DNA of 33,230 nucleotides, taken from assembly GCA_017504625.1 (NCBI GenBank), contig JAFVQU010000010.1, positions 1 to 33,230 of the forward strand, written 5' to 3'. Of the stretch, positions 11,377 through 29,877 are shown one piece after another (the first letter of the stretch is position 1; each line of letters opens with the position of its first letter). The stretch is from Clostridia bacterium (GTDB taxonomy: Bacteria > Bacillota > Clostridia > Oscillospirales > CAG-272). The translations under genes were made by a program, and so were the position numbers. A model generated the notes under the pieces. That model was given only the letters and a program-made list of their open reading frames with translations. It was not told the origin of the DNA and searched no databases.

Positions 11377-11409
11377 AAAATGCACCGCTTATACGGTGCA
11401 TTTTTCTTT
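11377..11409. terminator. Bidirectional terminator between the ferritin-like gene and aroQ
   Basis: Stem AAAATGCACCG / CGGTGCATTTT with a 6-base loop, flanked by A-rich and T-rich tracts on either side, so it can stop transcripts from both converging genes. It also marks the 3' end of the aro operon. Confidence 0.88.
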
Positions 11410-11842
11410 ATTTAGACAGATATTCAACAAGATATTCAAGCGCGACTTTGTAGCCGTCAAAGCCAAGACCCATAACGGTTTTTATCGCGGCGAGAGAAAC
11501 GTAGGAGAGCTGTCTGAAGTCCTCGCGCTTCGACACGTCGGAGATGTGAACCTCAACGGTCGGAATAGATACAGACTTGAGCGCGTCAAGGATTGCAATC
11601 GAGGTGTGAGTATATGCGGCGGGATTGATAACGATTCCGTCAAAGACGCTGTAAGCGTCCTGAATCTTATCAACTATCGCGCCCTCGTGATTAGACTGAT
11701 ATATCTCACAGTCAACACCGAGATCGTTGCAGGTCTTTTTTATAAGACGGCAGAGCGCGGAATAGTTCTTGTCACCGTATATCTCAGGCTCGCGCAGACC
11801 GAGCATGTTGAGATTTGGGCCGTTGATTATCAGAATTTTCAT
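11408..11842 (-). CDS. aroQ: 3-dehydroquinate dehydratase, type II
   Basis: Third shikimate step: 3-dehydroquinate to 3-dehydroshikimate. The 144-residue length is typical of the dodecameric type II enzyme. The N-terminus ILIINGPNLNMLGLREPEIYG contains the family signature with the catalytic Tyr. The other catalytic block NPAAYTHTSIAILDAL supplies the His, and VEVHISD the substrate-binding end. It is the last gene of the aro operon and overlaps the aroEK gene by four bases. It is unrelated to the type I (aroD) enzyme. Confidence 0.96.
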   Translation of the reverse strand: MKILIINGPNLNMLGLREPEIYGDKNYSALCRLIKKTCNDLGVDCEIYQSNHEGAIVDKIQDAYSVFDGIVINPAAYTHTSIAILDALKSVSIPTVEVHISDVSKREDFRQLSYVSLAAIKTVMGLGFDGYKVALEYLVEYLSK

Positions 11843-13098
11843 TTGTCTGTCCCCCCTCGAAAGATATTTAATATTTCCTTGGCACAGTCAATGGCGGTTG
11901 TGCCGTTTTTTACCTTGTAGTCGCAAAACGCCTCGTACATTGGGCGTCTTTTTTGGAACATTTCTTCAAGATCTCCGTTTTGCGAGAGCGGTCTGCCGTC
12001 GCGCGATAGGAAATTGATATTCCGTTGAATATAAAAGATAACGCCGTTTTGCTTAAGCGAGCGGTAGTTTTCGCCGCGAGTGACGACACCGCCGCCGGTT
12101 GAGATTATAAGTGAGCTTTGCTTACCCACCTCGGCTACTGCCTTATGCTCGGCGGAGCGGAAATAATCCTCGCCGTCGCTCTTGAAGATCGTGGGAATGT
12201 CGCGCCCTTCGCTTTTGGATATCATCTCGTCGGTGTCAACGAGCTTTCGTCCCGTCATTTCGGACAAGATCGCGCCGACCGTGCTTTTACCGCAACCGGG
12301 CATACCTACAAGCACGATATTTTTTGTTGTTTTTTCAATTTCTGCCGTTATTTCGTCAATAACGCCGTTGTCTATCGTCGTATCAAGGAAAAGCTCGCAA
12401 GCCCGCTTTGCCTGCGCGACGAGCATTGAAAGTCCGTTCGTGCAAGGGATTTTCAGGCTCTGCGCCTCAAAAAGAAGCTCGGTTGTGGCGGGATTGTAAA
12501 CCATATCCGCAACACCCGAAAGATGCTCAAAGCTCGAAAGGCTTATAGGTGATACCTGGTTATTCGGATACATGCCGACGGGCGTGCAGTTGATTATCAC
12601 CTCGCCGTCGGGGTGCTTTTCATACACGTTTTCGTAATTCACATCGCCATTTCGCGATACCAATACGATCTCACACGCTCCGAGGTCGGAGCATACCGCC
12701 TGAGCCGTCAATGATGCGCCGCCCGTGCCTAAAATAAGCACCTTTTTGCCTTCTATCGCTATATTTGCCTTTTTCAGCATATATGTAAAGCCGAAATAGT
12801 CGGTATTGTCGCCGCGAAGTCGCCCGTTGGAAAGACGAGTGACCGTGTTTACCGAGCCTATGCGCCTTGCCTCCTCGGATATCTCGTCAAGATAGGGTAT
12901 CACCGTTTTTTTATAGGGGATAGTTACGTTAAGCGCATCAAAATCGCCGCCGCGGATAAACTTGCCTACCTCGCATTCGCTCATTTCAAAGAGTTTATAC
13001 GAATAGTCGGCAAGAAGACCGTGTATCCTGGGCGAAAAGCTATGCGAAAGCGTTTTGCCGATAAGACCGCACCGCAAATTGTTTTTACCTGTTATCAT
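11839..13098 (-). CDS. aroE-aroK: Bifunctional shikimate dehydrogenase / shikimate kinase (AroE-AroK fusion)
   Basis: One 419-residue polypeptide carries two consecutive pathway enzymes. Residues 1 to about 255 are shikimate dehydrogenase: GLIGKTLSHSFSPRIH, catalytic Lys in NVTIPYKK (K63), Asp in DNTDY (D100), the NADPH loop GTGGAS at 124-129 and a C-terminal VAQAKRACELFL. Residues about 258-419 are shikimate kinase: P-loop GMPGCGKST at 265-273, DTD at 288-290, substrate-binding R314 in GEDYFR, GGG at 335-337 and the lid RDGRPLS. Both active sites look intact and the join is short (about 10 charged residues). The frame is continuous, so this is a genuine fusion rather than two genes. ATG at 13098 follows GGAG at a long 12 bases. 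Confidence 0.94.
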   Translation of the reverse strand: MITGKNNLRCGLIGKTLSHSFSPRIHGLLADYSYKLFEMSECEVGKFIRGGDFDALNVTIPYKKTVIPYLDEISEEARRIGSVNTVTRLSNGRLRGDNTDYFGFTYMLKKANIAIEGKKVLILGTGGASLTAQAVCSDLGACEIVLVSRNGDVNYENVYEKHPDGEVIINCTPVGMYPNNQVSPISLSSFEHLSGVADMVYNPATTELLFEAQSLKIPCTNGLSMLVAQAKRACELFLDTTIDNGVIDEITAEIEKTTKNIVLVGMPGCGKSTVGAILSEMTGRKLVDTDEMISKSEGRDIPTIFKSDGEDYFRSAEHKAVAEVGKQSSLIISTGGGVVTRGENYRSLKQNGVIFYIQRNINFLSRDGRPLSQNGDLEEMFQKRRPMYEAFCDYKVKNGTTAIDCAKEILNIFRGGTDK

Positions 13099-13121: not shown

Positions 13122-14270
13122 TTATATTATCTCGGAATACGCGCCGAGAAGTCTGAACTTTTCTCCTCTTGCTTCAAGCTCGCAAAGCAGACGCTTGAGC
13201 GTGTCGGAATATACCGAAACAGTAAAATCAAAATAGAACATTGACTCAAAATCTCGCTCGGGGATCGGGCAGGATTCAAGCTTCGTCATATTGACACCGA
13301 GGGAATTGAAGCAGGAAAGCACGTGATAGAGCGCGCCGGGGCGGTTGGGAGTTACGAGCATAAGCGAGAGCTTATCCGCGCCTGGATAGACCTCGGGGTC
13401 TTTGGAAATGCAGATAAATCTTGTGAAATTGTTGCCCGTATCCTGAAGCGAGGGCATAATATTTTCAAGACCGTAAAGCTCTGCGCAGAAGCGCGAGGAT
13501 AGTGCCGCAACGTCGTCACGGTCAGACTCTGCTACCATTTTCGATGCGAGCGCGGTATTTGCGACAACGGTCACCTTTATCTGAGGATTTGCCTTGAGGA
13601 ATTCCGAGCATTGACTTATCGCCTGCTCGTGTGAGAAAATTTCCTTTATATCTTCAAGCCTTCTGCCCGATTTTGCGAGCAGATTGTGGTCTATTTTGAG
13701 CCTTACCGAGCGCACGATGCTGAAGTTGTGGCAGAGCATAAGCTCGTAGACCTTTTTAACCGATCCCGCCGTGCTGTTTTCAATAGGAAGTACGCCGTAT
13801 TTGCAATCTCCGCGCTCGATAGCCGAGAAAACCGAGTCAAACGAGGGGCAATATGTGATGGTGGGAAGCTCAAAGAGCTTTTCCGCCGCTATCTGCGAAT
13901 ACGCGCCCTCAACGCCCTGACATGCGACCTTTGCGCGAGAGGGGAAGATGGGAGGCGTTATTTCAAGAGCCTTTGCTATCTCGTCGTAGCAAAGTGAGCT
14001 TTGGTGAAGCTTGGTGTACTGATAAGCACGTGAAACGTCAAGCATTGTGCGATAGAGCGTGCGCGCGTAGCCGTCAAGCTCATCACCCGCAAGGCTTGAG
14101 ATTTTTTCAAGCAGCTCACGCTCGCGTGCCGCGTCAAGCACGGGAAGAGAGCGTTCCTTTTTGTACTCTGCAACGCACGCCGCGATAGCCATTCTCTTTT
14201 TGAAAAGCTCGACTATCTCTTCGTCGGTCGCGTTTATTTCTTCTCTTAATTTTTTGAGATCAAGTTCCAT
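13122..14270 (-). CDS. pheA: Bifunctional chorismate mutase / prephenate dehydratase (P-protein)
   Basis: Converts chorismate to prephenate and prephenate to phenylpyruvate, 382 residues. Residues 1-88 are an AroQ-fold chorismate mutase (LREEINATDEEIVELFKKRM, then YKKER). Residues about 112-290 are prephenate dehydratase, starting at VACQGVEGAYS and containing the catalytic TRF motif at 283-285. Residues about 300-378 are an ACT domain with RPGALYHVL and LESCPIP, positions that normally bind phenylalanine, so feedback inhibition is likely; the usual ESRP reads ESCP. GGAG lies 7 bases before the ATG. It sits between aroC and aroEK. Its mutase also supplies prephenate for TyrA, which lacks one. 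Confidence 0.95.
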   Translation of the reverse strand: MELDLKKLREEINATDEEIVELFKKRMAIAACVAEYKKERSLPVLDAARERELLEKISSLAGDELDGYARTLYRTMLDVSRAYQYTKLHQSSLCYDEIAKALEITPPIFPSRAKVACQGVEGAYSQIAAEKLFELPTITYCPSFDSVFSAIERGDCKYGVLPIENSTAGSVKKVYELMLCHNFSIVRSVRLKIDHNLLAKSGRRLEDIKEIFSHEQAISQCSEFLKANPQIKVTVVANTALASKMVAESDRDDVAALSSRFCAELYGLENIMPSLQDTGNNFTRFICISKDPEVYPGADKLSLMLVTPNRPGALYHVLSCFNSLGVNMTKLESCPIPERDFESMFYFDFTVSVYSDTLKRLLCELEARGEKFRLLGAYSEII

Positions 14271-14288: not shown

Positions 14289-15365
14289 TTATCTATCAAG
14301 CAACAAATCAAAAATTGCGATTGCACATGCCGCCTCAAAGACGGGGATGGCGCGGGGAAGTATGCAGGGGTCGTGTCTGCCCGTGATTTTGAGCTTCACG
14401 TTTTCCATTTTGGATAGAGAAACGCTGTCCTGCTCCTTTGCGATAGAGGGTGTCGGTTTAATTGCCGCGCGGAAGATAATAGGCATTCCGCTCGTCATAC
14501 CGCCAAGTATTCCGCCCGCGTTGTTTGTTTTGGTGTAAACCTTTTTGCCGTCGGTATAAAACGCGTCGTTGTTGGACGAGCCGCGCAGAGCGGCAGAACC
14601 GAAACCGCGTCCGAATTCAATGCCCTTGACCGCGGGAATTCCAAAGATTATAGACGAAATTCTACCCTCAACACCAAGGAATATATGCTCGCCAAGCCCT
14701 GCGGAAAGTCCCGTAGCCGCGCATTCGATAATGCCGCCGACCGAGTCGCCGTCAAGACGCGCGTCCTCAATGATTGCGCGCATTTTTTCTTCTGCTGACG
14801 GGGAAATAGTGGCGAATTTCTTTGCTTTTATAGAATTAAAGTCGGCAGATGCGGGGTCAACGAGGTCAAAGCTCTCGTCATAAGCGTCCGCAACCGAGAG
14901 AATGTGGGCGCATACATCAATTCCTTTACGCGCAAGTATTTGCAGGCATATACCGCCCGCAATACACATAGGAGCCGTAAGTCTGCCCGAAAAATGACCG
15001 CCGCCGCGCAGATCGACATTCTCGCCGTACTTCATCCTCGCCGCAAAATCGGCGTGCGAGGGGCGGGGAATATCGGAGAGCGACGAGTAGTCACCCGAGC
15101 GCTGATTTTTATTGTAAATTACCGCTTCAATTGGCTCGCCGTTCGTGACGTTGCCGTCAAGCCCAGAGAGAAAAACAGGCTCGTCGGGCTCTTTTCTTGC
15201 AGTTGAGAATTGATCGTTTCCGGGGGCGCGGCGCGCCATAAACGCGCGGAGCGCGTCAAGATCGATCACCTCACCCGCAGGGATTCCCGAGAGGATCATG
15301 CCGATCCTCTCGTCGTGGGAGCCGCCGTATATTTTGAGTTTAAGATTTACACCGTAAGCGTTCAT
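14289..15365 (-). CDS. aroC: Chorismate synthase
   Basis: Last shikimate step: EPSP to chorismate, using reduced FMN; 358 residues, the normal length. Recognisable blocks are IYGGSHDERIGMILSGIPAG near the N-terminus (equivalent to GESHG), ARRAPG, RPSHADFAARMKYG with the second active-site His, LRGGGHFSGRLTAPM and, late, GGILGGMTSGMPI. The first block reads GGSHDE rather than GESHG, keeping the His. GGAAGG precedes the ATG. It lies between aroA and pheA on the same strand. Confidence 0.96.
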   Translation of the reverse strand: MNAYGVNLKLKIYGGSHDERIGMILSGIPAGEVIDLDALRAFMARRAPGNDQFSTARKEPDEPVFLSGLDGNVTNGEPIEAVIYNKNQRSGDYSSLSDIPRPSHADFAARMKYGENVDLRGGGHFSGRLTAPMCIAGGICLQILARKGIDVCAHILSVADAYDESFDLVDPASADFNSIKAKKFATISPSAEEKMRAIIEDARLDGDSVGGIIECAATGLSAGLGEHIFLGVEGRISSIIFGIPAVKGIEFGRGFGSAALRGSSNNDAFYTDGKKVYTKTNNAGGILGGMTSGMPIIFRAAIKPTPSIAKEQDSVSLSKMENVKLKITGRHDPCILPRAIPVFEAACAIAIFDLLLDR

Positions 15366-15404: not shown

Positions 15405-16649
15405 TTATTCCGTAAAGTTTTCCGCGAATGCGGGATAAGATTTGCTTATCGCCTCAAAGCGTGAGATCTTGACCTCACCGTCGCAGACGAGCGAGGCGAT
15501 AGCCGCGCTCATAGCAATTCTGTGGTCGTTGTATGAATCGACCGCTCCTCCGACAAGTCGGGGCTTTCCGACTATCACCATACCGTCGCTCGTCGGAGTA
15601 ATATCCGCGCCGAGATTTGATAGCATATTGCAAACGCTCTCGATTCGGTCGCTTTCTTTTAAGCGAAGGCGCGAGGCGTTAAATATCCTCGTTTTGCCCT
15701 CTGCGACCGATGCAACAGTTGCTAAGACAGGCACGAGGTCGGGTATCTGCGCCGCATCAATGTCAACGGCGCAAGGTCTTGAGGGGAAAACGGTTATGCC
15801 GCCGTCTGCAATTTCAATATGCGCGCCCATTTTTTTGAGAATTTCAAGCATTTCGCGGTCGCCCTGACGGGAATTTTTGTCAAGTCCGAGGACGGTTACT
15901 TTGTTTTGACCTATCGCGCCTGCCGCCAAAAAGAAGGCGGCGTTTGACCAATCTCCACCGACGGTCAGATCGCGTGGAGAGGTAAGCTTGTCCTTGCCAA
16001 TTATCGTGTAGGTTTGACTTTCTATATCAAAATTGATATCCGCGCCGAACTCATTGAGTGCGTCAAGCGTCATTTCAACGTATGGCGCGGATTCAAGCTT
16101 GCCTTCAAGCCTGAGGGTGCTTTCGCCCTCACAAATTGAGAGCGCGAAAAGCATTCCGCTTATAAACTGCGAGGATATATTCGCCGCGAGCGAGTAGCTG
16201 CCCGATTTAAGCTTTCCCTTTATGCTCAAAGGGCTTGTGCCTTGCGCGCCGAGTGTAATACCGTTAGATATCAACAGCTCGTAAAGCGGAGAGAGGGGGC
16301 GAAAGGCGAGTCTGCCGCGCATAATAAACGAGCAGTCAGCTCCAAGCGCCGCCGCGAGTGGCAGAAGAAAGCGCAGAGTCGAGCCCGATTCGTTGCAATC
16401 GAGCATTGCGCCCGTATTTGCCGTGTTTATAGGTTCTATTATAAAGTGTTCGCCATCACGGGTGATATTCGCGCCAAGGGCGTTCAGGCATGCCGCCGTC
16501 GCGTCAATATCGGCGTTCGTGTCGGTGCAAAGCAAACTGACATTTTTGTCACCGAGCGCGGAGCATATAAGGTATCTGTGTGCCTCGGATTTTGAAGAAA
16601 TGGCTCTTATCTCGCTTTTTACCCGCGCATTCTTAAAAATTTTATCCAC
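15405..16649 (-). CDS. aroA: 5-enolpyruvylshikimate-3-phosphate synthase
   Basis: Sixth shikimate step, joining PEP to shikimate 3-phosphate; 414 residues from the GTG at 16649. That start was chosen because AAGGA lies 7 bases upstream and it falls 13 bases after the aroB stop; the longer ATG start at 16691 would overlap aroB by 29 bases. Active-site blocks are SKSEAHRYLI, CNESGSTLRFLLPLA, PDLVPVLATVA with the catalytic Asp, LKESDRIESV and SYNDHRIAMS. The middle of the operon. Confidence 0.95.
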   Translation of the reverse strand: MDKIFKNARVKSEIRAISSKSEAHRYLICSALGDKNVSLLCTDTNADIDATAACLNALGANITRDGEHFIIEPINTANTGAMLDCNESGSTLRFLLPLAAALGADCSFIMRGRLAFRPLSPLYELLISNGITLGAQGTSPLSIKGKLKSGSYSLAANISSQFISGMLFALSICEGESTLRLEGKLESAPYVEMTLDALNEFGADINFDIESQTYTIIGKDKLTSPRDLTVGGDWSNAAFFLAAGAIGQNKVTVLGLDKNSRQGDREMLEILKKMGAHIEIADGGITVFPSRPCAVDIDAAQIPDLVPVLATVASVAEGKTRIFNASRLRLKESDRIESVCNMLSNLGADITPTSDGMVIVGKPRLVGGAVDSYNDHRIAMSAAIASLVCDGEVKISRFEAISKSYPAFAENFTE

Positions 16650-16662
16650 GTTTTTGTCCTTC

Positions 16663-17718
16663 TTATAATCCCTTTTCAAATATGCCCTCAAGCTCGCTTA
16701 CGTCTACCTTGTATATCTGCGAATTACCGATGCCGAAGGGAATAATGAGCGATATCTTATCTCCGCTGCGTTTCTTGTCTGAAAGCGCGGCTTCGTCAAG
16801 TGAATGAGCGTCAAAATCACAGCTTGTGGGAAGCTGGTACGCCGAGAGAATGTCAAGAATTTCGACAAGATCGGAGTCGGGGCAAAGTCCCATTTTGTTT
16901 GCCGCGCGGGAGATTATCGCCATACCGATAGCAACCGCGCTTCCGTGTGAAACCTCATAATTTGAAAGGGCTTCTATCGAGTGCGCCGCCGTGTGACCGA
17001 GGTTTAACAGCTGGCGGATTCCGACATCTCTTTCATCGGCGTTGACCACGTCGCGCTTGTCGCGTACGCAGTTTTCGATAACGTCCTCAAGCTGTTCCTT
17101 TATTGGCGTCGTCCTAAGCTTGTCGAAGAGGGGGCGGTCACTTATGATCCCGTATTTTATGACCTCGGCACATCCGTCGTTGAATATATTGTCGGGCAGA
17201 GTGTCAAGTGTTTCGCAGTCACAGATGACGAGCGAGGGTTGATAGAATGCGCCGACAAGGTTTTTGCCCTCGGGAATGTCAATTGCGGTCTTACCGCCGA
17301 CTGACGAGTCCACCATAGCGAGAAGCGTGGTTGGTATCTGGATAAAGTTCACTCCGCGAAGATACGTTGCCGCGCAAAAGCCCGCAAGGTCGCCGACAAC
17401 TCCGCCTCCAAGAGCGAAAATACAATCGGCGCGGGTTATATTGTTCTTTGCGAGAAATGAGAGAAAAGCGAGATAATTCTCGGCGCATTTTGATCCCTCT
17501 CCTGCGGGAATAACGTAGGAAACCGCCGAAAAGCCCGCCGACTGAAGTGATTTTTCAAGCCTTTCAAGATAAAGCGGCGCGACGTTTGAATCGGTAAGTA
17601 TCGCCGCCGCGCAAGGCGTTTTCAGTACCTCTGCCGCCAATTCTCCCGATTTGTCGAGTATTCCCTTGTCAATGATAATATCGTAAACGCGCGAGGCGTT
17701 AACAGCTACTTTTTTCAT
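16663..17718 (-). CDS. aroB: 3-dehydroquinate synthase
   Basis: Second shikimate step, cyclising DAHP to 3-dehydroquinate with NAD and a divalent metal; 351 residues. The start at 17718 has AGGAG 5 bases upstream; an in-frame ATG at 17736 lies in the tyrA-aroB junction without a site. Motifs: PAGEGSKC, the glycine-rich ALGGGVVGDLAGFCAATYLRGV-type NAD loop, DSSVGGKTAID, metal ligand Glu in GCAEVIKYG, and His in NLGHTAAHSIE and SHGSAVAIGM. It lies between tyrA and aroA. Confidence 0.96.
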   Translation of the reverse strand: MKKVAVNASRVYDIIIDKGILDKSGELAAEVLKTPCAAAILTDSNVAPLYLERLEKSLQSAGFSAVSYVIPAGEGSKCAENYLAFLSFLAKNNITRADCIFALGGGVVGDLAGFCAATYLRGVNFIQIPTTLLAMVDSSVGGKTAIDIPEGKNLVGAFYQPSLVICDCETLDTLPDNIFNDGCAEVIKYGIISDRPLFDKLRTTPIKEQLEDVIENCVRDKRDVVNADERDVGIRQLLNLGHTAAHSIEALSNYEVSHGSAVAIGMAIISRAANKMGLCPDSDLVEILDILSAYQLPTSCDFDAHSLDEAALSDKKRSGDKISLIIPFGIGNSQIYKVDVSELEGIFEKGL

Positions 17719-17738: not shown

Positions 17739-18587
17739 TTATCCGTCGATCTCTTCCTTGGCGATTCTACCTGCCTTGAGTATTTCCTGCATTTTTTCCT
17801 TGTCGCCTGACTCAAGCGCGTCGCGATATTCGCTAAGTGAGGAGATTATCTCGTCGATCTCGTAAAGCAAAGGCTCCTTGTTTTCAAAGAAAAGCTCTGT
17901 CCACATTTTTTCGTTGAGCCACGCCACTCTCGTCATATCCTTGTAGCTGCCCGCCGAAAATCCCTTGTGATTTTTAGCGGTCGGGCTTTTTACGTATGCG
18001 TTTGAAACTACGTGGGCAAGCTGTGAGGTGAAGGCGATCATTCTGTCGTGCTCGTCTGCCGTCGTGAACGAAAACTTGCCAAAGCCTGCGGGCTCAAGAA
18101 GCTTTTTTATATGTTCAAAGAGCGCGATATCGTCAAATCTCGGAGGAACGATAACCATAGGCGCGCCCTTGAACATAGTTGATCTTGAATATTTATATCC
18201 CGAAAAGTGCGTACCCGCCATAGGATGCCCGCCAACGAAGGTAAAGCCGTATTTCTCCGCAAGAGCAAAGCCTGTGCGGCATATTTCCTTTTTCGTTCCG
18301 CAAAGGTCGATCATAAACGCGCTCTTTTTGACGAGCGGCGCGATCTCTTCCATATATTCGATGCTCGATACGGGATAGAGTCCGACGAAGATAAGATCGC
18401 ACTCGGGAATTGTGCTTTCGTCAAGCTTGCCGTCAAGAACGCCCTGCAAAATAGCGAAATCGGTTATTGACTTACTTCTGTTGTATCCGTATATCTCGTA
18501 GCCGAGATCGTTTGCGACAGAAAATTCTCTGTACGCCTTTGCCATCGAGCCACCGATAAGACCGAGACCGACAATTCCTATTTTCAT
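17739..18587 (-). CDS. tyrA: Prephenate dehydrogenase
   Basis: Oxidative decarboxylation of prephenate to 4-hydroxyphenylpyruvate, the tyrosine branch; 282 residues. The N-terminal Rossmann fold has IGIVGLGLIGGSMAKAY, and the substrate region has FVGGHPMAGTHFSGYKYS with the catalytic His. There is no chorismate mutase or ACT domain, so prephenate must come from PheA in the same operon and feedback control is not evident in this chain. GGAGC lies 5 bases before the ATG. Arogenate specificity cannot be excluded from sequence. Confidence 0.93.
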   Translation of the reverse strand: MKIGIVGLGLIGGSMAKAYREFSVANDLGYEIYGYNRSKSITDFAILQGVLDGKLDESTIPECDLIFVGLYPVSSIEYMEEIAPLVKKSAFMIDLCGTKKEICRTGFALAEKYGFTFVGGHPMAGTHFSGYKYSRSTMFKGAPMVIVPPRFDDIALFEHIKKLLEPAGFGKFSFTTADEHDRMIAFTSQLAHVVSNAYVKSPTAKNHKGFSAGSYKDMTRVAWLNEKMWTELFFENKEPLLYEIDEIISSLSEYRDALESGDKEKMQEILKAGRIAKEEIDG

Positions 18588-18630: not shown

Positions 18631-19629
18631 TCAGATCTCTCTTATATGATTTACGCTCTTCATGACCTCGTCAAACTGAGCGGGTGTGAGTGATTGCGCG
18701 CCATCGCAAAGGGCGGCCTTGGGGTTGTTGTGTACCTCGATCATAAGTCCGTGCGCGCCGCACGCGGTTGCCGCGAGAGCCATAGGCTTTACAAGTCTTG
18801 CAGAGCCTGTCGCGTGGCTCGGGTCAACGATTACGGGGAGATGAGTAAGCTCCTTAAGCACGGGGATAGCTGAAAGATCAAGCACGTTTCTTGTATACTG
18901 CGAATCGTACGAGCGGATTCCGCGCTCGCAGAGAATGATATTCTCGTTTCCGCCCGCCATAATGTACTCGGCGGACATAAGCCACTCCTTGATAGTTGCG
19001 GAAAGTCCCCGCTTGAGAAGAATAGGCTTTTTCGTTCTTCCAAGCTCCTTGAGCAGCTCAAAATTCTGCATATTGCGCGCGCCGACCTGGATAACGTCAA
19101 CCTCCTCGAAAAGAGGCAAGTGATTGGCGTTCATTATCTCGGTAACGATGGGCAATCCGGTTTCCTTCTTGGCGTGAAGGAGGATTTCAATACCGTCTGC
19201 TTTAAGTCCTTGGAAATCGTAGGGTGAGGTTCTCGGCTTGAACGCGCCGCCGCGGAGCATCGTCGCACCCGCCGCCTTGACCGCTTTTGCTATCTCAAGC
19301 ACCTGCTCCTCGCTTTCAACCGAGCAAGGCCCGGCCATCACGGCGAAGATATCGCCGCCCACGCTCGTATCTCCCACCTTAACGACCGAATTGTCGGGGT
19401 GGAACTTTCTGTTTGCGCTCTTAAAGGGCTCTGATATGCGCTTGACCGACTCAACTATGTCAAGACTGCGAAGCAGATCCTCGTCGACTCTTGAGGTGTC
19501 GCCGACAAGACCTACGATGGTCTGATAATCTCCGCGCGAGAGGTGGACGGTAAGTCCGAGCGATTCTATCCAATTAAGCAAGCCCTCAAGCTGCTTTTCA
19601 CTTGTTCCGTTTTTGAGTACTGCGATCAT
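18631..19629 (-). CDS. aroF: 3-deoxy-7-phosphoheptulonate synthase (DAHP synthase, type I beta)
   Basis: First committed step of the aromatic pathway, from PEP and erythrose 4-phosphate; 332 residues. Residues 1 to about 70 are a ferredoxin-like regulatory domain (MIAVLKNGTSE...GLTVHLSRGDYQTIVGLVGD) like that of the Thermotoga-type enzyme, which mediates aromatic amino acid inhibition. The TIM barrel has MAGPCSVES with a metal-binding Cys, RGGAFKPRTSPYDFQG, IQVGARNMQN, LKRGLSATIKEW and VDPSHATGS. AGGAAGGA lies about 11 bases before the ATG. It is the first structural gene after the leader peptide and attenuator. Confidence 0.96.
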   Translation of the reverse strand: MIAVLKNGTSEKQLEGLLNWIESLGLTVHLSRGDYQTIVGLVGDTSRVDEDLLRSLDIVESVKRISEPFKSANRKFHPDNSVVKVGDTSVGGDIFAVMAGPCSVESEEQVLEIAKAVKAAGATMLRGGAFKPRTSPYDFQGLKADGIEILLHAKKETGLPIVTEIMNANHLPLFEEVDVIQVGARNMQNFELLKELGRTKKPILLKRGLSATIKEWLMSAEYIMAGGNENIILCERGIRSYDSQYTRNVLDLSAIPVLKELTHLPVIVDPSHATGSARLVKPMALAATACGAHGLMIEVHNNPKAALCDGAQSLTPAQFDEVMKSVNHIREI

Positions 19630-19651
19630 TTTGTTAAAATTCCTTCCTGAT

Positions 19652-19699
19652 AAATAAAAACAGACACCCGGCAGAGCGATCTTGCCTGCGAAGTGTCCG
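19652..19699 (-). terminator. Attenuator terminator in the aro operon leader
   Basis: On the minus strand, CGGACAC (19699-19693) pairs with GTGTCTG (19667-19661), with an inner GGCA/TGCC stem (19686-19683 with 19673-19670), followed at once by TTTTTATTT (19660-19652). It lies between the leader peptide and aroF, where a conditional terminator is expected. Confidence 0.8.
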
Positions 19700-19769
19700 G
19701 TAAATATATTACACCGTTGTCGGAAAAAGCTCCGTTTTCATCTGCACAGCAAAAATCACCTTTATTATA

Positions 19770-19829
19770 TTACGCCGCGTAATAATAATAAAAGTAACGG
19801 TATGCAAATACGAAAGCCGATGCGAACAT
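19770..19829 (-). CDS. Phe/Tyr-rich leader peptide of the aro operon
   Basis: A 19-codon ORF reading MFASAFVFAYRYFYYYYAA, then TAA. Ten of 19 residues are Phe (4) or Tyr (6), including YFYYYY in succession. It has a good site, AAGGA 7 bases before the ATG at 19829, and begins about 26 bases after the predicted transcription start. About 70 bases separate its stop from the attenuator hairpin. The composition, place and terminator match ribosome-mediated attenuation leaders such as enterobacterial pheL: scarcity of charged tRNA-Phe or tRNA-Tyr would stall the ribosome and allow read-through into aroF. The mechanism is inferred; the antiterminator pairing (perhaps GGTGT upstream with ACACT of the terminator arm) is not certain. 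Confidence 0.85.
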   Translation of the reverse strand: MFASAFVFAYRYFYYYYAA

Positions 19830-19861
19830 GAATTTGTCCTTCTTTCCTTTAGTATATTAAC

Positions 19862-19890
19862 ATTTTAGCACCATAAAAGTGCTTTGTCAA
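19862..19890 (-). promoter_or_regulatory. Predicted sigma-A promoter of the aro operon, with an internal inverted repeat
   Basis: On the minus strand: perfect -35 TTGACA (19890-19885), a 17-base spacer, and -10 TAAAAT (19867-19862) with an upstream TGC. The spacer holds inverted arms AGCAC/GTGCT (19883-19879 and 19871-19867), a possible operator. The predicted start is near 19855, giving a leader of about 225 nt. Confidence 0.85.
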
Positions 19891-19923
19891 GATAAAGTTC
19901 CAAAAAAGTAGCAATAAATAATA

Positions 19924-19962
19924 AAAAGTCGAAGACTTTTTTGAAAAAAGTCCTCGACTTTT
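19924..19962 (-). terminator. Terminator of the zinc uptake operon
   Basis: A 19-bp stem (one G-U pair) with a one-base loop: AAAAGTCGAGGACTTTTTT against AAAAAAGTCTTCGACTTTT on the minus strand, then a T-rich tail. It lies 6 bases past the lipoprotein stop and insulates the aro promoter. Confidence 0.9.
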
Positions 19963-19968: not shown

Positions 19969-20751
19969 TTACTTAAATACGCACTCTACCTTGTTTACGG
20001 CATCGACCTCTATGCAGGCGTAAGGAGTTCCGTTTTCAAGATAAAAGCTCAGCGTTCCTATGACCTCGACGGGATTTACGAGATTGCCGCTTACCGTCGG
20101 GAAGCTTATCGTTCCGCTGTCATCGTGAAGCTCAATATACCAGGTCTGATATCCGTCGCCGTTAAGCCCCAAAAGGTAGGCATATCCGCTTTGATTTGCA
20201 AGATGACCGAAAATGCGGATCTTTTTTCCTGCGGATGCGCTCGTTTCATAATTGGAAACGAACTCGGCTATATATGCCTCAAGCTCGGATGCGTTCATTG
20301 TGAGCGTGTCAACGTCGTACTCGGCCTCGTTTGTAACGCTGCTCGCCCAATCGTAAAGGTCAATGTATCCGTCGGAGGTAAAGGTGCCGACGAAGGTGAC
20401 GTCTGAGCCGTTGACGGGATATTTTCCGTCCTCTGCGCGCACCTCGTAGGATGCGTTGCAGCAGCCGGTCGGGTCAAGACCGAGCATAATGTGCTTGACC
20501 ACCTTGTTCTGATCAAAATTATAAACGACGGATCCCAACGCGTCGATCTTTATATTCTGCCCCTGATAATTTTCGGGATTGATCATAAACTCGCATATCG
20601 TTCCGTACGGATCGTTAAGAAGCGAATAGTCAACCACGTTTTCAAGGGGCGGCTTTGTTAGCTCGTTATTGCCCGAGCCGTTTTCGGAGCAGCCTGCAAA
20701 AAGCGAAATTGAGAGAACGGCGCATAATGCCAATAAAAATATCTTTTTCAT
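19969..20751 (-). CDS. Lipoprotein of the zinc uptake operon, OB-fold/DUF1980-like
   Basis: A 260-residue lipoprotein of unknown function. The ATG at 20751 was chosen because GAGG lies 8 bases upstream and the protein then opens with a clean signal: KK, a hydrophobic core and SLFAGC with Cys21. The mature part seems to have two beta-rich modules. The first has ENYQGQNIKIDALGSV and LGLDPTGCCNASYEV, which resembles the CCxA motif of DUF1980/YcgQ-type proteins; the second has GKKIRIFGHLANQSG and VIGTLSFYLENG. It begins 8 bases past the znuB stop and is the last gene before the operon terminator, so a role in metal handling at the membrane is plausible but unproven. Confidence 0.7.
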   Translation of the reverse strand: MKKIFLLALCAVLSISLFAGCSENGSGNNELTKPPLENVVDYSLLNDPYGTICEFMINPENYQGQNIKIDALGSVVYNFDQNKVVKHIMLGLDPTGCCNASYEVRAEDGKYPVNGSDVTFVGTFTSDGYIDLYDWASSVTNEAEYDVDTLTMNASELEAYIAEFVSNYETSASAGKKIRIFGHLANQSGYAYLLGLNGDGYQTWYIELHDDSGTISFPTVSGNLVNPVEVIGTLSFYLENGTPYACIEVDAVNKVECVFK

Positions 20752-24147: not shown

Positions 24148-24398
24148 AGTAAACTTTAAATGGCTATCTATGCTATTTTTATGCATATTTATAGTTTCTT
24201 GAGGTTTTTAGTTTGAATCTGACGAATTCCTCTATCCGGTCGGGCCCGGCCGGGGAGGAGCTCGCTGATTATATAGTCGAAGAATTGAGATACGATCCTG
24301 CGAATCTGCGTAGGGAGCCCGTTTACACTAAAAGCAAGCGGGAGAACCCCGCGTCGTTTGTCTCACACACAAAGCTCGGGGGTTCTGATTGAGATTTT
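24148..24398 (+). ncRNA. Structured non-coding RNA, multi-helix (raiA-motif-like)
   Basis: A GC-rich island in AT-rich surroundings that folds by eye into a nested set of helices. Closing stem: AATC (24216-24219) with GATT (24387-24390), then GAATTCC (24224-24230) with GGGGTTC (24379-24385). Inside: hairpin CCGGTCG/CGGCCGG (24236-24253); GAGCT (24258-24262) with AGCTC (24373-24377); TGAGATACGA (24286-24295) with TCGTTTGTCTCA (24354-24365, 2-base bulge), which encloses hairpins CCTGCG/CGTAGG (24297-24314) and CCCGTTT/AAGCGGG (24318-24342). Five T's follow the closing stem. Size, architecture, promoter strength and clostridial host fit the raiA motif, a widespread complex RNA, but I name that family from memory. 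A TTG-started 59-codon frame (24213-24392) overlaps it and is considered chance. Confidence 0.72.
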
Positions 24399-24465
24399 TC
24401 GGATATGGGCTTATGGATTTGCCTTGAAAATCCAAATAACAAAACACATTTTTTATGGAGGAAAA

Positions 24466-27400
24466 ATGAAAAACACGTTTGTTAAAGTGCTCTCATTTTT
24501 GATGGCACTCACAATGATCGTGGGTATGTTCAGCGCAATCACCGTCTCCGCTGCTGACGAATGTACTCACACTAAGGGCGAAATCGTTAAGACTGTTCCG
24601 CCCACCTGCCAGACGTCCGGTTACACCGTTCGCCTTTGTGCAGATTGCGGCGAGGAGTATATTCCCGCTGATGAAATCGTTTTGGCTAGCCCCGAGTATC
24701 ATGACATTAAGCATACTGAGGCTACTGCTGCAACCTGTTTGAAGGATGCAACCACCGCTGGTAAGATATGCCAGGTTGAGGGTTGTGGCTATGTTCCTGA
24801 GAACGAGGGTGTTCAGGTTGTTGCTGGCTCTCAGAAGGAGCACTCCTTCAAGAGAGTAAAGGTTGCTGCTACCTGCGACGCTCCTGCAAGATACGAGTAC
24901 GTTTGTGCTGTTTGTAACAACACCGCTGAGAAGATCAACGAGCTTGTTAATAAGACGGACGAGGATGGTAATCCCGCTCCCGAGACCAAGTGGGTTGGTA
25001 CTCAGACCTATGAGCAGTTCAAGGCTACCGCAATTGCAGGCGAGGGTGCATTGAACCCCGACCACACTATCCTTACTTGGGAAATCGTAACTGTTCCCGT
25101 AATGGATAAGACTGCTAAGACCTGTACTGACGGTCTTATGAAGGGTTCTTGCGCACACTGTGACTACACTGAGGAAAAGGTTATTCCTGTTGCTCACGAG
25201 TTCACTATTAACCTTAACCCCAACAATTCCGCATGTGCTGACTACGTAAGCGGCTTTGCTTGTGCAATTTGTGGCGAGATTTCCTCTGACGCTGTTGTAA
25301 ACGAAGAGCCCACCGAACACGCAAATGCCGGTAACAAGGTCTTCACCGGTAAGTTCACCGCTACTCTTCCCACAAAGCTTGACGGCTCCAAGTTCACTTT
25401 CGCAGAGCTTGAGGCTCTTGGCTTCGAGCTTGGTGATGACTTCTACAAGGCATCTACCTGCACTGAGACCGGTTACGCTCTTACTGAGTGTCTCTGCGGT
25501 CAGATCTACATCGCTATTATTCCTGTTGATGCTGATGCTCACAAGGATGCAAACCTTGATTGGGGCGACACTCAGTGGCCCACCACTTGTACTGAGGCTG
25601 CTGTAAAGGTTGGCAAGTGCGTTAACTATGCAGTTTGTGGTTACGAGAAGACCACCGTTGTATATCCTGCAGCTGCATCTGCACACAAGATCGATAACAA
25701 GACTGAGGCTCCTACCTGTACTGATGTTGGTTACTCTACCGCTGCATGTACCAACAAGTTCGTTTCTGACGGCGTTGAGGTTACTTGTGCTCACGGTCGT
25801 GAGGCTGACGGTACTCCCTCTAAGTTCGCTTACAAGGATGAGCTTGGTCACACTTGGGGTGAGCCCACCTACAAGTCCGGCGTCTGCGGTTCCGCTGTTT
25901 ACGAGAAGCAGTGTTCCGTTTGTGAGGTTAAGGAAGACGTTGCTGAGCCCGAGGGTATCGAGCACGTTTATACTGAGATCGTTGTTCCTGCAAACTGCGC
26001 AAGCCCTGAGTTTGTAAGAAAGATCTGTACCATTTGTGAGCATACCGTAGACAACGCTCCTGCAGAGGGCGCTGAGAAGGACGAAACTGTTCACGTATAC
26101 GATATCACCGTTGCCGCTTCCATCGTAGCGGTTGTTAAGGCTCCCACCTGTACCGCTACCGGTATTACCACCATCAAGTGTGCTAATCCCGCTTGTACCG
26201 CTACAGCTGTTGAGACCTCTAAGAACGTAGAGACCGCTAAGATCGCTCATACCGAAGTTTCCGGTAGCAAGATCGAGTGGGATGAAGCGAATGAAACTTG
26301 GGTTGTAACCTCTGGTCAGACCAACGCTACTTGCCAGGCTGTAGGTTACAAGAACAACGGTAAGTTCTGTACCGTTTGTGGTGCTACTACTAAGGCTCCC
26401 ACCGAGATCAAGGTTGACGCTACCGCTCACGTAGGTACTAAGACTCTTATCGGTACTACCGCTTCTACCTGTCAGGCTGACGGTACCAATACTTACACCA
26501 CCACTTGCTGTGGTATCGTAACCGAAAAGAACGCTGCAGATCCTAAGTGGGATGCATGCTTCAAGGTTACTAAGAACGTTCCCTACAAGGCTCCTACTTG
26601 CACCGAGGCTGGTAACCATGCATACGTTGCATGTGCTGGCTGTGATGCATACAAGCCCTTGACTGTTGTTACTACCGGTTGTTCGCTTAACTGCTCCAAC
26701 CACCAGGCTATCAACGATAAGCAGACCAACGTTTACACCATCGCTGCTCTCGGTCACGACTGGGTTAAGCAGGATGCTGTTCCTGAAGACTGCGACACTA
26801 ACGGTACTAAGGAGTACTTCGACTGCTCCAGATGTACTCTCGTAACCTTCGATAAGGTTAAGACATATGACACCGCTGATGACGAGACCGACAACACCAA
26901 GAACGAGAACCTTCAGTTCCTTGCTGCTCTCGAGATCGTTGCTCACGGCGCAACTTACAACCAGAAGTTCACCGCTGTAGCTGCTACCTGTACCTCTACC
27001 GGTATCGCTGCTACTAAGGCTGACGGCTCTGCTTGGTGTACCAAGTGTGACGTAAACGCTGACGGAACCGGTAAGTGGATCACTCCTAAGGCTCCTCACA
27101 CCGACTCTACCGTTGAGCTCAACAAGACTACTGACGATAATTACGATTGTACCAAGCCCCACGCTGTAGTAACATCTTGTACCGTTTGTGGTAACGTTAC
27201 TGCTTACGATTTCGATGAGCCTGCTGAGGAAGCTCACGAATTCGCTAAGGATGCAGATGGCAAGGACATCTGGGTAGAGCAGGCACTTGCTACCGGTGAG
27301 TACTCTTGTAAGAACGACACCATGGAGACCAGAGCTTGTACTAACGCTAACTGTAAGTATACTGAAGAGCGCGTAAAGACCGCTAAGACCGGTTGTTGGA

Positions 27401-28605
27401 CCTACAAGGGTGCTACTCCCGCTCAGATCGCGGCAGGTGCTCAGAAGTACACTATCGACCTCAGCTGTGATAAGATTTCCGAATTCGTAGGCTTCACTTG
27501 TGGCGAATGCGGCGAGGAGATCAAGGCTGAAATGGCTGTACACACCATCGTTTCCGTTGACAAGGATGCTACTTGTGACGAGGACGGTTACCACATCGAA
27601 TACTGTAAGGTATGTAACTCCGATGAGGTTGCTGTTAACACTAAGTACAACAAGCTTGATGCTGACGGCAAGCACACCTTCGGTGCAGACAGCGTAGTTC
27701 TTGAGATCAAGCCCGCTACTCCTACCGAGGACGGCTTCAAGAAGTACACTTGTGCTCTCTGTGGCAAGGAAGCAGTTGAAGTTATTCCTGCATCCGCTAC
27801 TATCGTTATCACCGGTACCCTCTCCGCTGAGGAAGTTGCTGCCGGTACTACCGTAGAGTACGTTGTTAACTTCTCCGGCGTTGACTTCGAGTTCAACACC
27901 CTCAAGCTTAACATCGCTTACAACTCCAGCTACCTTACCTTCGTATCCGCTAGCACCACTCTTGAGGGCGCTAAGGTATACACCAACGTAAACGCTGACG
28001 GTCTTGGAATCACTCTCGCAGTTCCTTACTCTGCAGACGGTGAGGAGCAGAAGGCTATGACCTCTGTTGACGGTTCTGACGTTGTTACCGTTGTATTCCA
28101 GGCTAACAACTACGCTATCGGCCAGACCATCGTTGACGTAACTAAGCTCAACGACGCTGCATATGCATGCGAGGCAGCTGAGCTTAAGATCCTTGGCCGC
28201 GGTAACCTTAACGGTGACACTCTTGTAACCGTAGAGGATGCTCTCGCAGTTTCCAAGAAGTTCGGTACTGCTGACGTTTACGCTGATATCAATGGCGACG
28301 GAATCGTAGACGTTGATGACTTTGCACTCGTTGCAACCTTCGCAGCTTCTAACCAGACTGCTAAGGATTACCTCGTAATGGTTGGTACTTACGCTGAGAT
28401 CGCTGAAACTATTGAGACTCTCTATGAGACCAGCAAGCTTGCTGACGTTAACAAGGATGGCCGTCAGGATATCAATGACTACTGGTACATCACTCTTTAC
28501 ATTGAGGAAGCTCTCAATGATGCTGATTACGATGAACTCGGCTTCGCAAGCGTTTATGAGCTTGTAATCACCGTTATGAGCTACCTTGCTCTTGGAACCC
28601 CCTAA
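24466..28605 (+). CDS. Large secreted cysteine-repeat protein with cohesin-like and dockerin-like C-terminal modules
   Basis: A 1379-residue exported protein. The ATG at 24466 follows GGAGG by 4 bases; the frame upstream lacks a site. Residues 1 to about 31 are a signal peptide ending VSA. Residues about 33-1105 hold roughly 20 degenerate repeats of 40-80 residues built around a P/A-TC-x-x-x-G element, then a CxxC(G) pair about 6-15 residues on (for example PTCQTSGYTVRLCADCG). Residues about 1109-1244 are a beta-rich, cohesin-like domain. Then come three calcium-loop dockerin-type segments at about 1247 (NLNGDTLVTVED), 1274 (DINGDGIVDVDD) and 1327 (DVNKDGRQDIND). No sortase signal or membrane anchor is present. 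Codon use is much more biased than in the metabolic genes (GCT, GGT, ACC, AAG), suggesting high expression. The function is unknown; attachment to a cohesin partner such as the next gene's product is inferred. Confidence 0.88.
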   Translation: MKNTFVKVLSFLMALTMIVGMFSAITVSAADECTHTKGEIVKTVPPTCQTSGYTVRLCADCGEEYIPADEIVLASPEYHDIKHTEATAATCLKDATTAGKICQVEGCGYVPENEGVQVVAGSQKEHSFKRVKVAATCDAPARYEYVCAVCNNTAEKINELVNKTDEDGNPAPETKWVGTQTYEQFKATAIAGEGALNPDHTILTWEIVTVPVMDKTAKTCTDGLMKGSCAHCDYTEEKVIPVAHEFTINLNPNNSACADYVSGFACAICGEISSDAVVNEEPTEHANAGNKVFTGKFTATLPTKLDGSKFTFAELEALGFELGDDFYKASTCTETGYALTECLCGQIYIAIIPVDADAHKDANLDWGDTQWPTTCTEAAVKVGKCVNYAVCGYEKTTVVYPAAASAHKIDNKTEAPTCTDVGYSTAACTNKFVSDGVEVTCAHGREADGTPSKFAYKDELGHTWGEPTYKSGVCGSAVYEKQCSVCEVKEDVAEPEGIEHVYTEIVVPANCASPEFVRKICTICEHTVDNAPAEGAEKDETVHVYDITVAASIVAVVKAPTCTATGITTIKCANPACTATAVETSKNVETAKIAHTEVSGSKIEWDEANETWVVTSGQTNATCQAVGYKNNGKFCTVCGATTKAPTEIKVDATAHVGTKTLIGTTASTCQADGTNTYTTTCCGIVTEKNAADPKWDACFKVTKNVPYKAPTCTEAGNHAYVACAGCDAYKPLTVVTTGCSLNCSNHQAINDKQTNVYTIAALGHDWVKQDAVPEDCDTNGTKEYFDCSRCTLVTFDKVKTYDTADDETDNTKNENLQFLAALEIVAHGATYNQKFTAVAATCTSTGIAATKADGSAWCTKCDVNADGTGKWITPKAPHTDSTVELNKTTDDNYDCTKPHAVVTSCTVCGNVTAYDFDEPAEEAHEFAKDADGKDIWVEQALATGEYSCKNDTMETRACTNANCKYTEERVKTAKTGCWTYKGATPAQIAAGAQKYTIDLSCDKISEFVGFTCGECGEEIKAEMAVHTIVSVDKDATCDEDGYHIEYCKVCNSDEVAVNTKYNKLDADGKHTFGADSVVLEIKPATPTEDGFKKYTCALCGKEAVEVIPASATIVITGTLSAEEVAAGTTVEYVVNFSGVDFEFNTLKLNIAYNSSYLTFVSASTTLEGAKVYTNVNADGLGITLAVPYSADGEEQKAMTSVDGSDVVTVVFQANNYAIGQTIVDVTKLNDAAYACEAAELKILGRGNLNGDTLVTVEDALAVSKKFGTADVYADINGDGIVDVDDFALVATFAASNQTAKDYLVMVGTYAEIAETIETLYETSKLADVNKDGRQDINDYWYITLYIEEALNDADYDELGFASVYELVITVMSYLALGTP

Positions 28606-28629
28606 CCCCTGATTTTGTGAGGTGTAACT

Positions 28630-29877
28630 ATGCAACTTAAAAGAATATTCGTATCGCTTTTGGTTGCTATTATGATGCTCTCTTTGGCAGTTATCACAGC
28701 TGTTGCTGTTGATACTGCAAGCGCAACCTTTGACGTCGCAGTGGAGGTTTCCTCCGCTGTGGACGCAGAGGCTGTAACGCTTGTTTCCGCTGGTGATACC
28801 ATAGAGGTTAAAGTAGTAATTGAAAAAAACCCCGGTGCTGCATATACTCAGGTCACGTTCTTCTATGATGCAGACGTGCTCACTCCTGTAGATGCAGACG
28901 AAGATGGTTCTCCTGATATTACTCAGGGCGGTACATACAATTATACGTCTGTAACAAATACCCTTATCAAGGGTGAAAACGCTATCGTAGTTATTTCTGA
29001 CATTTCTGCAAAGAACAGCGTTGCTCTTGGTGATGCTTTCACCATTAAGTTCCGCGTTGCAGAGAATGTTAATGATAACGTTAAGCTCGAGTACGTCGTT
29101 AAGGCGTACAACGAGAAGAACGAAAAGTTGGCTGACGATACCAGAGTTGACATGAATCTCATCGCTACCAGCCACAATGTTGGTGCTGACAACGTATCTG
29201 TTGCAGCTCCCACTTGTACTGAGGATGGCAAGATCACTATTACCTGTGCTGATGCAGGATGTGATTTCGTAATGGTTGTTGACGGTGATGCAGCTCTTGG
29301 TCACGATATGGAAACTGTTGGCGAGGTTGCTGCAACCTGTACCGTTGACGGTCATTCCGCAGGTGAGAAGTGTAGCCGCTGCGATGAAACCACTTGCACA
29401 GTTTATCCCGCAACCGGTCACACCGAAGTCGTAGTTCCCGGCGTAGCTGCTACTTGCACTACTGATGGTACTAAGGACGGTAAGAAGTGCTCTGTTTGTG
29501 GCGAAACAACTCTTGCTAACGAGGTAGCTCCCGCAACCGGACACAGTATTGTAACTGTTGCTAAGGTTGATGCAACCTGTACAACTGCTGGTTCTACTGA
29601 AGGTACAAAGTGCTCCACTTGTGGAGTATATGTAGTTGAGCCCACCGTGATTCAGCCTCTCGGTCACACCGAAAAGGTTATTCCTGCTGAAGAGCCTACT
29701 TACTCTGAGCCCGGTTCTACCGAAGGTAAGGAGTGTACGGTTTGTGGTGCAATCACTGTTCAGCCCGTTGAGATCCCCGCTTTGTCTCTTACATGGCTTT
29801 GGGTTCTTATCGCTGCAGTTGTTGTAATCGGCGCTGGCGCTGTTGCAGTATTCTTCATCGTTAAGAAGAAGAAATAA
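28630..29877 (+). CDS. Membrane-anchored surface protein with a cohesin-like domain and cysteine repeats
   Basis: A 415-residue surface protein. Residues 1 to about 26-32 are a signal peptide. Residues about 33-175 resemble a cohesin/cohesin-like beta-sandwich (DTIEVKVVIEKNPGAAYTQV, FFYDADVLTPV, GDAFTIKFRVAEN). From C196 to about residue 383 there are five repeats with TC..G and CxxC elements; repeats 2-5 are about 41 residues each, and the last has Tyr for the first Cys. Residues about 387-411 are a membrane helix followed by KKKK, so the protein is anchored with its repeats outside. GAGGTG precedes the ATG, 24 bases after the preceding gene's stop. It shares that gene's repeats and codon bias and is probably co-transcribed. 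Confidence 0.87.
   Translation: MQLKRIFVSLLVAIMMLSLAVITAVAVDTASATFDVAVEVSSAVDAEAVTLVSAGDTIEVKVVIEKNPGAAYTQVTFFYDADVLTPVDADEDGSPDITQGGTYNYTSVTNTLIKGENAIVVISDISAKNSVALGDAFTIKFRVAENVNDNVKLEYVVKAYNEKNEKLADDTRVDMNLIATSHNVGADNVSVAAPTCTEDGKITITCADAGCDFVMVVDGDAALGHDMETVGEVAATCTVDGHSAGEKCSRCDETTCTVYPATGHTEVVVPGVAATCTTDGTKDGKKCSVCGETTLANEVAPATGHSIVTVAKVDATCTTAGSTEGTKCSTCGVYVVEPTVIQPLGHTEKVIPAEEPTYSEPGSTEGKECTVCGAITVQPVEIPALSLTWLWVLIAAVVVIGAGAVAVFFIVKKKK

Follow-up and report, generated by a model that had tools for sequence, protein, structure and literature searches.

By what kind of element is the eight-gene aromatic operon in this 33,230-nt stretch of clostridial DNA (the whole stretch analysed, referred to below as the window) controlled? 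Aromatic amino acid genes of low-GC Gram-positive bacteria are usually described as being under T-box and TRAP control. The original prediction for this locus was a Phe/Tyr leader-peptide attenuator in front of a complete aromatic pathway operon, with no T-box. We conclude that the element before aroF is very probably a ribosome-mediated transcription attenuator that works by the textbook trpL/pheL mechanism, which is itself already known; the E. coli pheL and trpL attenuators use alternative hairpins. The claim of a complete eight-gene pathway operon stands, as all genes from aroF to aroQ were identified in the order aroF-tyrA-aroB-aroA-aroC-pheA-aroEK-aroQ (Table 1). Intergenic gaps are 43 nt or shorter with the start codons that we chose, and it is therefore fair to infer that the leader controls all eight genes via one transcript.

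Every part of the leader that had been proposed, from the −35 and −10 hexamers and the AAGGA site to the 19-codon ORF with its ten Phe/Tyr codons and the terminator with a U-run before aroF, is present; the range originally given for the element (19652–19867) holds for the rest of it, and the −35 hexamer lies just outside. The promoter (TTGACA, a 17-nt spacer and TAAAAT) scores 11/12. The leader stop codon and the aroF ATG are 140 nt apart, with the terminator between them, and the 5′ arm and loop of this terminator could alternatively pair with segment 2. Judged from its sequence, the locus thus has the parts of an attenuator of the trpL/pheL kind: a putative short ORF with a ribosome binding site between promoter and operon; a run of codons for the end products of the operon (ten Phe/Tyr codons before an operon with tyrA and pheA); an intrinsic terminator before the first structural gene; and a candidate antiterminator that excludes the terminator, with a 1:2 hairpin over the control codons, for which covariation is modest and a swap test (see below) gives better evidence.

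Table 1. Features of the leader and of the downstream operon in the window
Feature	Position	Strand	Remarks
−35 hexamer TTGACA	19885..19890	−	perfect
−10 hexamer TAAAAT	19862..19867	−	preceded by TG
Shine-Dalgarno AAGGA of leader ORF	19837..19841	−	read from sequence
Leader ORF MFASAFVFAYRYFYYYYAA plus stop	19770..19829	−	19 codons, 4 Phe and 6 Tyr
Segment 1:2 hairpin	19755..19798	−	predicted, −16.2 kcal/mol; 5′ strand within Phe/Tyr codons
Segment 2 AGGTGATTTTTGCTGTG	19745..19761	−	candidate antiterminator strand
Intrinsic terminator stem-loop	19661..19699	−	segments 3:4
U-run of terminator	19653..19660	−	
aroF, DAHP synthase	18631..19629	−	ATG at 19629
tyrA, prephenate dehydrogenase	17739..18587	−	best models below curated cut-offs
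aroB, 3-dehydroquinate synthase	16663..17718	−	
aroA, 3-phosphoshikimate 1-carboxyvinyltransferase	15405..16640	−	
aroC, chorismate synthase	14289..15365	−	
pheA, chorismate mutase-prephenate dehydratase	13122..14270	−	
aroE-aroK fusion, shikimate dehydrogenase and shikimate kinase	11839..13098	−	
aroQ, type II 3-dehydroquinate dehydratase	11408..11842	−	

A strong 18-pair hairpin with a T-rich tail (19924–19962, minus strand) is located between the upstream ORF, which ends at 19969, and the leader promoter, and is probably the terminator of the upstream gene. Elsewhere in the window (24358–29877), two large Cys-rich repeat proteins are encoded; on visual inspection, a stretch close to the C-terminus of the first resembles a dockerin, and the second carries a membrane anchor at its C-terminus.

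Phe and Tyr are the expected end products of the operon because no match to a chorismate-binding enzyme (PF00425: TrpE, PabB, MenF) was found in the genome of the window (1.96 Mb in 30 contigs, 97% complete), in which chorismate probably feeds Phe and Tyr only. PF00425 is present in 19 of 196 family genomes and in 15 of the 117 most complete ones; the 177 family genomes with no match include some incomplete ones. Trp auxotrophy may be usual in this family. Co-sensing of Trp was considered and rejected: seven of 68 family leaders contain a Trp codon, but only two of those seven genomes (G057 and G112) have a chorismate-binding enzyme. The pathway itself is patchily distributed, with aroF found in six of the 12 genus genomes searched (the query had no match in the other six) and in 72 of 196 family genomes, one of these with merely a weak partial match.

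Among the 73 family regions before aroF, 68 have an aromatic leader (65 from a script list and three by eye), which bears out the conservation of the small ORF that the original prediction had asked for. These leaders encode peptides of 16 to 38 residues with 5 to 13 Phe/Tyr codons each, and 67 of the 68 contain both Phe and Tyr codons. The five regions without a leader comprise L035 and L064, with 32 and 235 nt of upstream sequence, respectively, L073, which holds the single aroF of its genome, and L066 and L067, which are second aroF copies in genomes (G117 and G198) where the other copy has a leader. L066 and L067 have a short Cys-rich ORF in place of the leader, similar between the two by eye. 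Six family aroF regions were left out of this set (G090, G175, G189, G029, G136, and the duplicate contig G152:C60).

The leaders were compared with chance using a fixed rule (an RBS-like site and at least six Phe/Tyr codons in 12 codons). Among family regions of at least 235 nt, 63 of 72 real sequences satisfied the rule, as compared to one of 72 reverse complements and 10 of 1440 dinucleotide shuffles; for public contigs, the corresponding figures were 57/79, 0/79, and 15/1580. In a sample of the class, 49 of 87 real regions, four of 87 reverse complements, and 17 of 1740 shuffles satisfied the rule, the first figure being a biased rate owing to the choice of sample, for which 89 regions (29 + 60 loci, 87 of them long enough) were taken with the best-scoring aroF first and then spread across families. 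The shuffles and reverse complements rule out a chance ORF. The other 38 class-sample regions fall outside the rule, and four regions of this sample (L204, L237, L257, and L262) look leader-like by eye though below it. At least one leader-bearing genome occurs in 26 of the 36 other Clostridia families sampled, counting the leader ORF alone; of the 39 family labels in the class sample, three denote second copies. A leader is also present in named isolates, among them Sporobacter termitidis DSM 10068, Emergencia sp. 1XD21-10, Yanshouia hominis BX1, and Angelakisella massiliensis. Counts for the named and class sets refer to leader ORFs; the analysis of terminators and antiterminators covered the 68 leaders of the family and 13 further ones. 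Some sequences belong to more than one of the named, family, and class sets (e.g., L074 is the contig of L003 and L139 that of L060), and kinship inflates every sequence count.

The original prediction had listed a transcription start downstream of the small ORF as evidence against it. A promoter-like site scoring at least 10/12 precedes 64 of the 68 family leaders (vs. 33 of 680 mononucleotide shuffles), with a median of 35 nt from the −10 box to the leader ATG, and transcription would therefore be expected to start upstream of the leader. The codons themselves behave as had been proposed, with Phe/Tyr codons retained and the remainder of the leader variable: across 13 pairs of comparable leaders, Phe or Tyr was kept in 17 of 32 changes at aromatic codons, as compared to 22% if single bases changed at random.

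The terminator finder detected an intrinsic terminator in every one of the 68 family leaders, with over-long hairpins in a few of them (e.g., L002, L012, L059, and L069). The candidate antiterminator is, in each sequence, the best duplex that the 5′ arm and loop of the terminator can form with the RNA preceding it; because a best duplex always exists, the antiterminator pairing counts given here lean in its favour. Its commonest form pairs GTGATTTTTGCTGCG against CGCAGTGAAAATCAC, and other lineages use quite different letters (e.g., TCGGTTTGGC against GCCGAACCGG). Covariation was scored on a sequence-only alignment of 64 regions, from which L028, L029, L033, and L038 were left out for length. 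In an unguided scan of this alignment, terminator pairs ranked top with scores up to 83, as compared to null maxima of 18.0–24.4 over 20 column-shuffled nulls; a few pairs outside any helix also exceeded the null, an effect to be expected among sequences of common descent, and the top-scoring antiterminator pair (columns 59–188, score 20.0) fell inside the range of the null maxima. In the 64 rows, 88.6% of terminator cells were paired (66.2% when shuffled, at most 46% when slid) and the covariation score was 0.700 vs. 0.264 for shuffles, none of 500 of which reached it, with the ten pairs scored having come from the scan of the same alignment; all ten changed on both sides, but 126 of 500 shuffles reached that number too. 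For the antiterminator, 75.8% of cells were paired vs. 71.0% when shuffled (reached by 0/500) and 25–47% when slid by 1–3 columns, the covariation score was a modest 0.307 vs. 0.250 (0/500), and eight pairs changed on both sides, a number matched by 132 of 500 shuffles. The covariation that the original prediction had called for in a terminator/antiterminator pair is hence strong for the terminator and modest for the antiterminator.

Complementarity between the antiterminator strands was more evident when segments were exchanged among leaders. With a fixed segment-2 window that had not been fitted to the pairing, the own window gave −17.4 kcal/mol and foreign ones −13.0 kcal/mol, and the foreign window was as good as or better than the own one in 858 of 4556 swaps (18.8%), vs. 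48.1% for a control window. The energy of the antiterminator duplex had a median z of −2.37 against dinucleotide shuffles, and was reached by at most five of 100 shuffles in 47 of 68 leaders and by more in the remaining 21. In 65 of 68 leaders a 1:2 hairpin is predicted that takes in 3 nt or more at the start of segment 2 (median z of −3.66 against mononucleotide shuffles), and 68% of its 5′ bases lie inside aromatic codons.

The distance from the leader ATG to the antiterminator strand (searched from nt 36) has a mean of 65 nt with an sd of 6 in the 68 family leaders, whereas the positions of the stop codon and of the terminator start vary more (sd of 19 and 20, respectively), and aromatic codons peak 6 to 13 codons before the antiterminator strand (60–87% per position), dropping on either side. 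Folding was modelled at equilibrium rather than co-transcriptionally, with the ribosome placed on the last Phe/Tyr codon that leaves the antiterminator strand clear, a stall site of our choosing. For RNA ending just past the terminator loop, the predicted probability of the antiterminator rose from a median of 0.01 in free RNA to 0.93 with the ribosome; it rose by more than 0.2 in 59 of 68 leaders and fell by that much in none, and was already at least 0.5 without a ribosome in 15 of 68. In the window's own element the predicted values were 0.00 free and 0.78 with a stalled ribosome. When the full terminator was included, the window's element retained it at every stall modelled, and the switch would therefore depend on timing. 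The predicted folding behaviour is that expected of a classical attenuator.

In the mechanism that we propose, a ribosome would pass through the leader when both tRNAs are charged; segment 2 would then be taken up by the 1:2 hairpin of aromatic codons and/or occupied by the ribosome, the 3:4 terminator would form, and transcription would stop before aroF. If either Phe-tRNA or Tyr-tRNA were scarce, the ribosome would stall on the aromatic codons and cover segment 1, leaving segment 2 free to pair with the 5′ arm and loop of the terminator, and with this antiterminator in place RNA polymerase would continue into all eight genes. Stalling, increased readthrough under scarcity of charged tRNA, a response to each of the two amino acids, and a single transcript over eight genes are what we infer from this design. 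We think it likely that the attenuator senses both Phe and Tyr; codon content and target-matched leaders elsewhere speak for dual sensing.

These target-matched leaders came from searches with a model of the element (R1), which matched 71 of 196 family genomes, mostly those used to build it. Three family genomes outside its training set (G090, G175, and G189) also gave a match at aroF, and 11 places matched by the model lie away from any aroF match. In two family genomes, tyrA alone is preceded by a Tyr-rich leader (4 Tyr/1 Phe and 6 Tyr/1 Phe), and leaders with 3 Tyr and 4 Phe codons precede aroB-aroA-aroC in the same two genomes; tyrA-aroB follows a leader in one further case. In four genomes of one genus of the same family (g42; L267, L268, L270, and L271), a leader precedes a gene for a sodium:solute symporter of 525–527 residues (PF00474; the nearest NCBIfam model, below its cut-off, is the proline symporter PutP). 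Three of these leaders are whole (6 Tyr/3 Phe, 6 Tyr/3 Phe, and 8 Tyr/1 Phe; one reads MNSFVFAYAYYYYYFVER) and the fourth is cut by a contig end; no aroF match was found in three of the four genomes. We predict that this symporter takes up Phe/Tyr, i.e., aromatic amino acids. Two further family matches (G183 and G051) resemble chance terminators and were excluded from the targets.

Among 342 class genomes, R1 matched 44 at 47 places, 35 of which adjoin a listed aroF; ten of the 12 places away from aroF were read, leaving out G338 and an antisense match in G360. The non-listed places include one aroF-tyrA-aroB operon and one pheA-aroB-aroC operon (6 Phe/4 Tyr). In three genomes of family f55, the leaders of pheA contain Phe codons only (9, 6, and 8 Phe, no Tyr; L289, L290, and L291), and those of aroF-tyrA in the same genomes contain 6 Tyr with 2–3 Phe codons (L295, L296, and L297). 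One genome has a Tyr-Tyr-Tyr leader (3 Tyr/2 Phe in all; L288:198-312) before tyrS, and a leader with seven Leu codons, a candidate antiterminator and a terminator precedes leuA at L292:200-310, found with the Phe/Tyr model, which suggests that the leader design is common to other amino acids in Clostridia. L287, L293, and L294 resemble chance terminators and were likewise excluded. Of 15 leaders outside aroF operons, 13 were folded, and each had a terminator and an antiterminator duplex, bearing in mind that a best duplex can always be found. Within aroF operons on public contigs, the Tyr share is 0.49 where tyrA is next to aroF (45 leaders) and 0.33 where aroB is (five leaders, two of them identical), a difference with a Mann-Whitney p of 0.005 that ignores kinship. 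As far as the codons tell, leader content follows the target gene, being Phe-only at pheA, Tyr-rich at tyrA and the symporter, Tyr-Tyr-Tyr at tyrS, and Leu at leuA.

T-boxes occur in the same lineage. A T-box (RF00230) senses tRNA charging by direct binding, has no leader ORF, and can control a terminator. The genome of the window has seven T-box matches, four of them above the Rfam cut-off; five of the seven precede leuS, trpS, tyrS, thrS, and ilvA, and those at tyrS (88.7 bits, E of 4.4e-20), thrS, and ilvA score below the cut-off. At the aro operon the T-box model has no match, and the scan of the window gave no match to any Rfam family at gathering score, with none in 19600–19920 at E up to 1, in agreement with the earlier claim that aroF lacks a T-box; the same scan found no known riboswitch and no covariance-model match to the Rfam leader families. 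Both devices are, by our reading, charging sensors, with T-boxes at tyrS and trpS of this genome and not at the aro operon; the charging of tRNA-Tyr would be read by direct binding at tyrS and by way of the ribosome at the aro operon. The tyrS of the window's genome (L282) has a T-box, whereas the L288 genome has its Tyr-Tyr-Tyr leader there. In five relatives (L274–L278), the PF00425 gene is preceded by a T-box-like element, recognised at Rfam gathering score in one and by the conserved core in three, with the sequence of the fifth ending before the core and its upstream part being alike; within one family, tRNA charging seems to be sensed by one device for the Trp branch and by another for the Phe/Tyr branch. 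A T-box-like core was recognised by pattern in one class region (L252), and an Rfam scan of 20 other class regions gave no match.

Codon conservation, terminator covariation, a complementary antiterminator and the lack of a T-box match all support the attenuator interpretation, against which four alternatives were weighed. The one to be taken most seriously, though we consider it unlikely, accepts the attenuator and holds that just one of Phe and Tyr is sensed, the other codons being filler or structural. It gains from the aroR leader of Corynebacterium glutamicum, whose Phe-Tyr-Phe leader, according to the available part of one report, answers to Phe alone and not to Tyr (PMC11802643), and from the 1:2 hairpin described above; because aromatic codons make up strand 1 of this hairpin, some of them could be kept for RNA pairing. 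The retention of both residues in all but one of the family leaders argues for sensing of both, as do split pathways, in which Phe-only pheA leaders and Tyr-rich tyrA or aroF-tyrA leaders fit sensing of each amino acid.

The other three alternatives are far less probable than the attenuator reading. A short terminated RNA or peptide that acts in trans in addition to attenuation is improbable: the element is predicted to yield both a terminated transcript and a peptide, and the trpL leader peptide of Sinorhizobium meliloti is reported to act in trans (PMC7298713), but beyond the aromatic run both the length and the ends of the peptides vary. It is very improbable that the leader ORF chiefly boosts translation of the next gene by re-initiation, with the hairpin being an ordinary terminator; such a boost has been proposed for leader genes lying close to structural genes (PMC4833913), but the distance and the terminator between the leader stop and aroF stand against it, and the aromatic run, its constant spacing from the antiterminator strand, and codons that match the target would be left unexplained. 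Least probable, with hardly any weight, is a T-box or other tRNA- or metabolite-binding RNA next to a chance ORF: T-boxes are common in this genome and family, but the Rfam result around the leader already contradicts such an RNA here, and few shuffles or reverse complements contain an ORF like this one.

Attenuation of this kind has precedents with which the leader described here can be compared. E. coli pheL serves pheA and has Phe but no Tyr control codons, whereas the leader described here mixes Phe and Tyr and is followed by the whole pathway. The aroR leader of the C. glutamicum aroF operon was reportedly described by Neshat et al. 2014. In the accessible parts of PMC11802643 and PMC4046766, it is a leader peptide with Phe-Tyr-Phe upstream of the aroF operon; like the leader described here, it lies before a DAHP synthase gene and is assigned to attenuation by ribosome stalling. 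It differs, on that partial account, in belonging to Actinobacteria and in its three-residue motif and Phe response, as compared to 5–13 Phe/Tyr codons, Tyr-rich variants, and further targets in Clostridia, and the similarity between the two is one of layout alone. A leader ORF with end-product codons and a biosynthetic operon downstream is shared with E. coli pheL/pheA and trpL (PMC11802643, available text). The uORFC-13-1 motif of Acholeplasma is a uORF with at least one Phe codon upstream of aroF with an adjoining terminator, for which the excerpt of PMC8632094 gives 24 representatives from Acholeplasma and unassigned environmental sequences; it is described there without Tyr or other targets, and our leaders are set apart from it by this description. 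In Bacilli, His leader peptides at hisS-type genes (PMC2965389) are likewise ordinary leader-peptide attenuators in Firmicutes that replace T-boxes, with His codons and hisS/hisZ as targets, and the accessible text of that 2010 survey, which termed leader peptides outside Proteobacteria and Actinobacteria new, does not mention phenylalanine, tyrosine, or aroF. Other reports note hisZ attenuation for C. difficile (PMC4833913) and a T-box at the tyrosine operon of the B. cereus group (PMC2494555); an earlier survey of Actinobacteria saw no RNA element conserved among the Phe or Tyr operons of these bacteria (PMC1262725). Among the literature matches listed, as far as their text goes, none reports a Phe/Tyr leader in Clostridia; the attenuator survey of Lopatovskaya et al. 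2010 (Mol. Biol.) could hold cases. As far as the searched literature shows, the spread in Clostridia, the mixed Phe/Tyr control of a full pathway, the target-matched codons, and the Tyr-type leaders are new.

Taken more widely, we lean towards the view that Clostridia hold a large unnamed regulon of attenuators of one design, in which the codons are the target code, including Tyr-responsive ones beside tyrS T-boxes. If so, the code would read Phe plus Tyr for the whole pathway, Phe only for pheA, Tyr-rich for tyrA, tyrS, and the symporter, and Leu for leuA, and the match between leader codons and targets could predict substrates of genes of unknown function, such as that symporter. The lineage with these aromatic leaders also has T-boxes for tyrS, trpS, and TrpE-type genes, and offers a natural experiment on why one pathway is sensed through the ribosome and another by direct binding of tRNA. 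The f55 genomes, with a Phe-only pheA leader and a Tyr-rich aroF-tyrA leader side by side, offer a natural test of the codon code.
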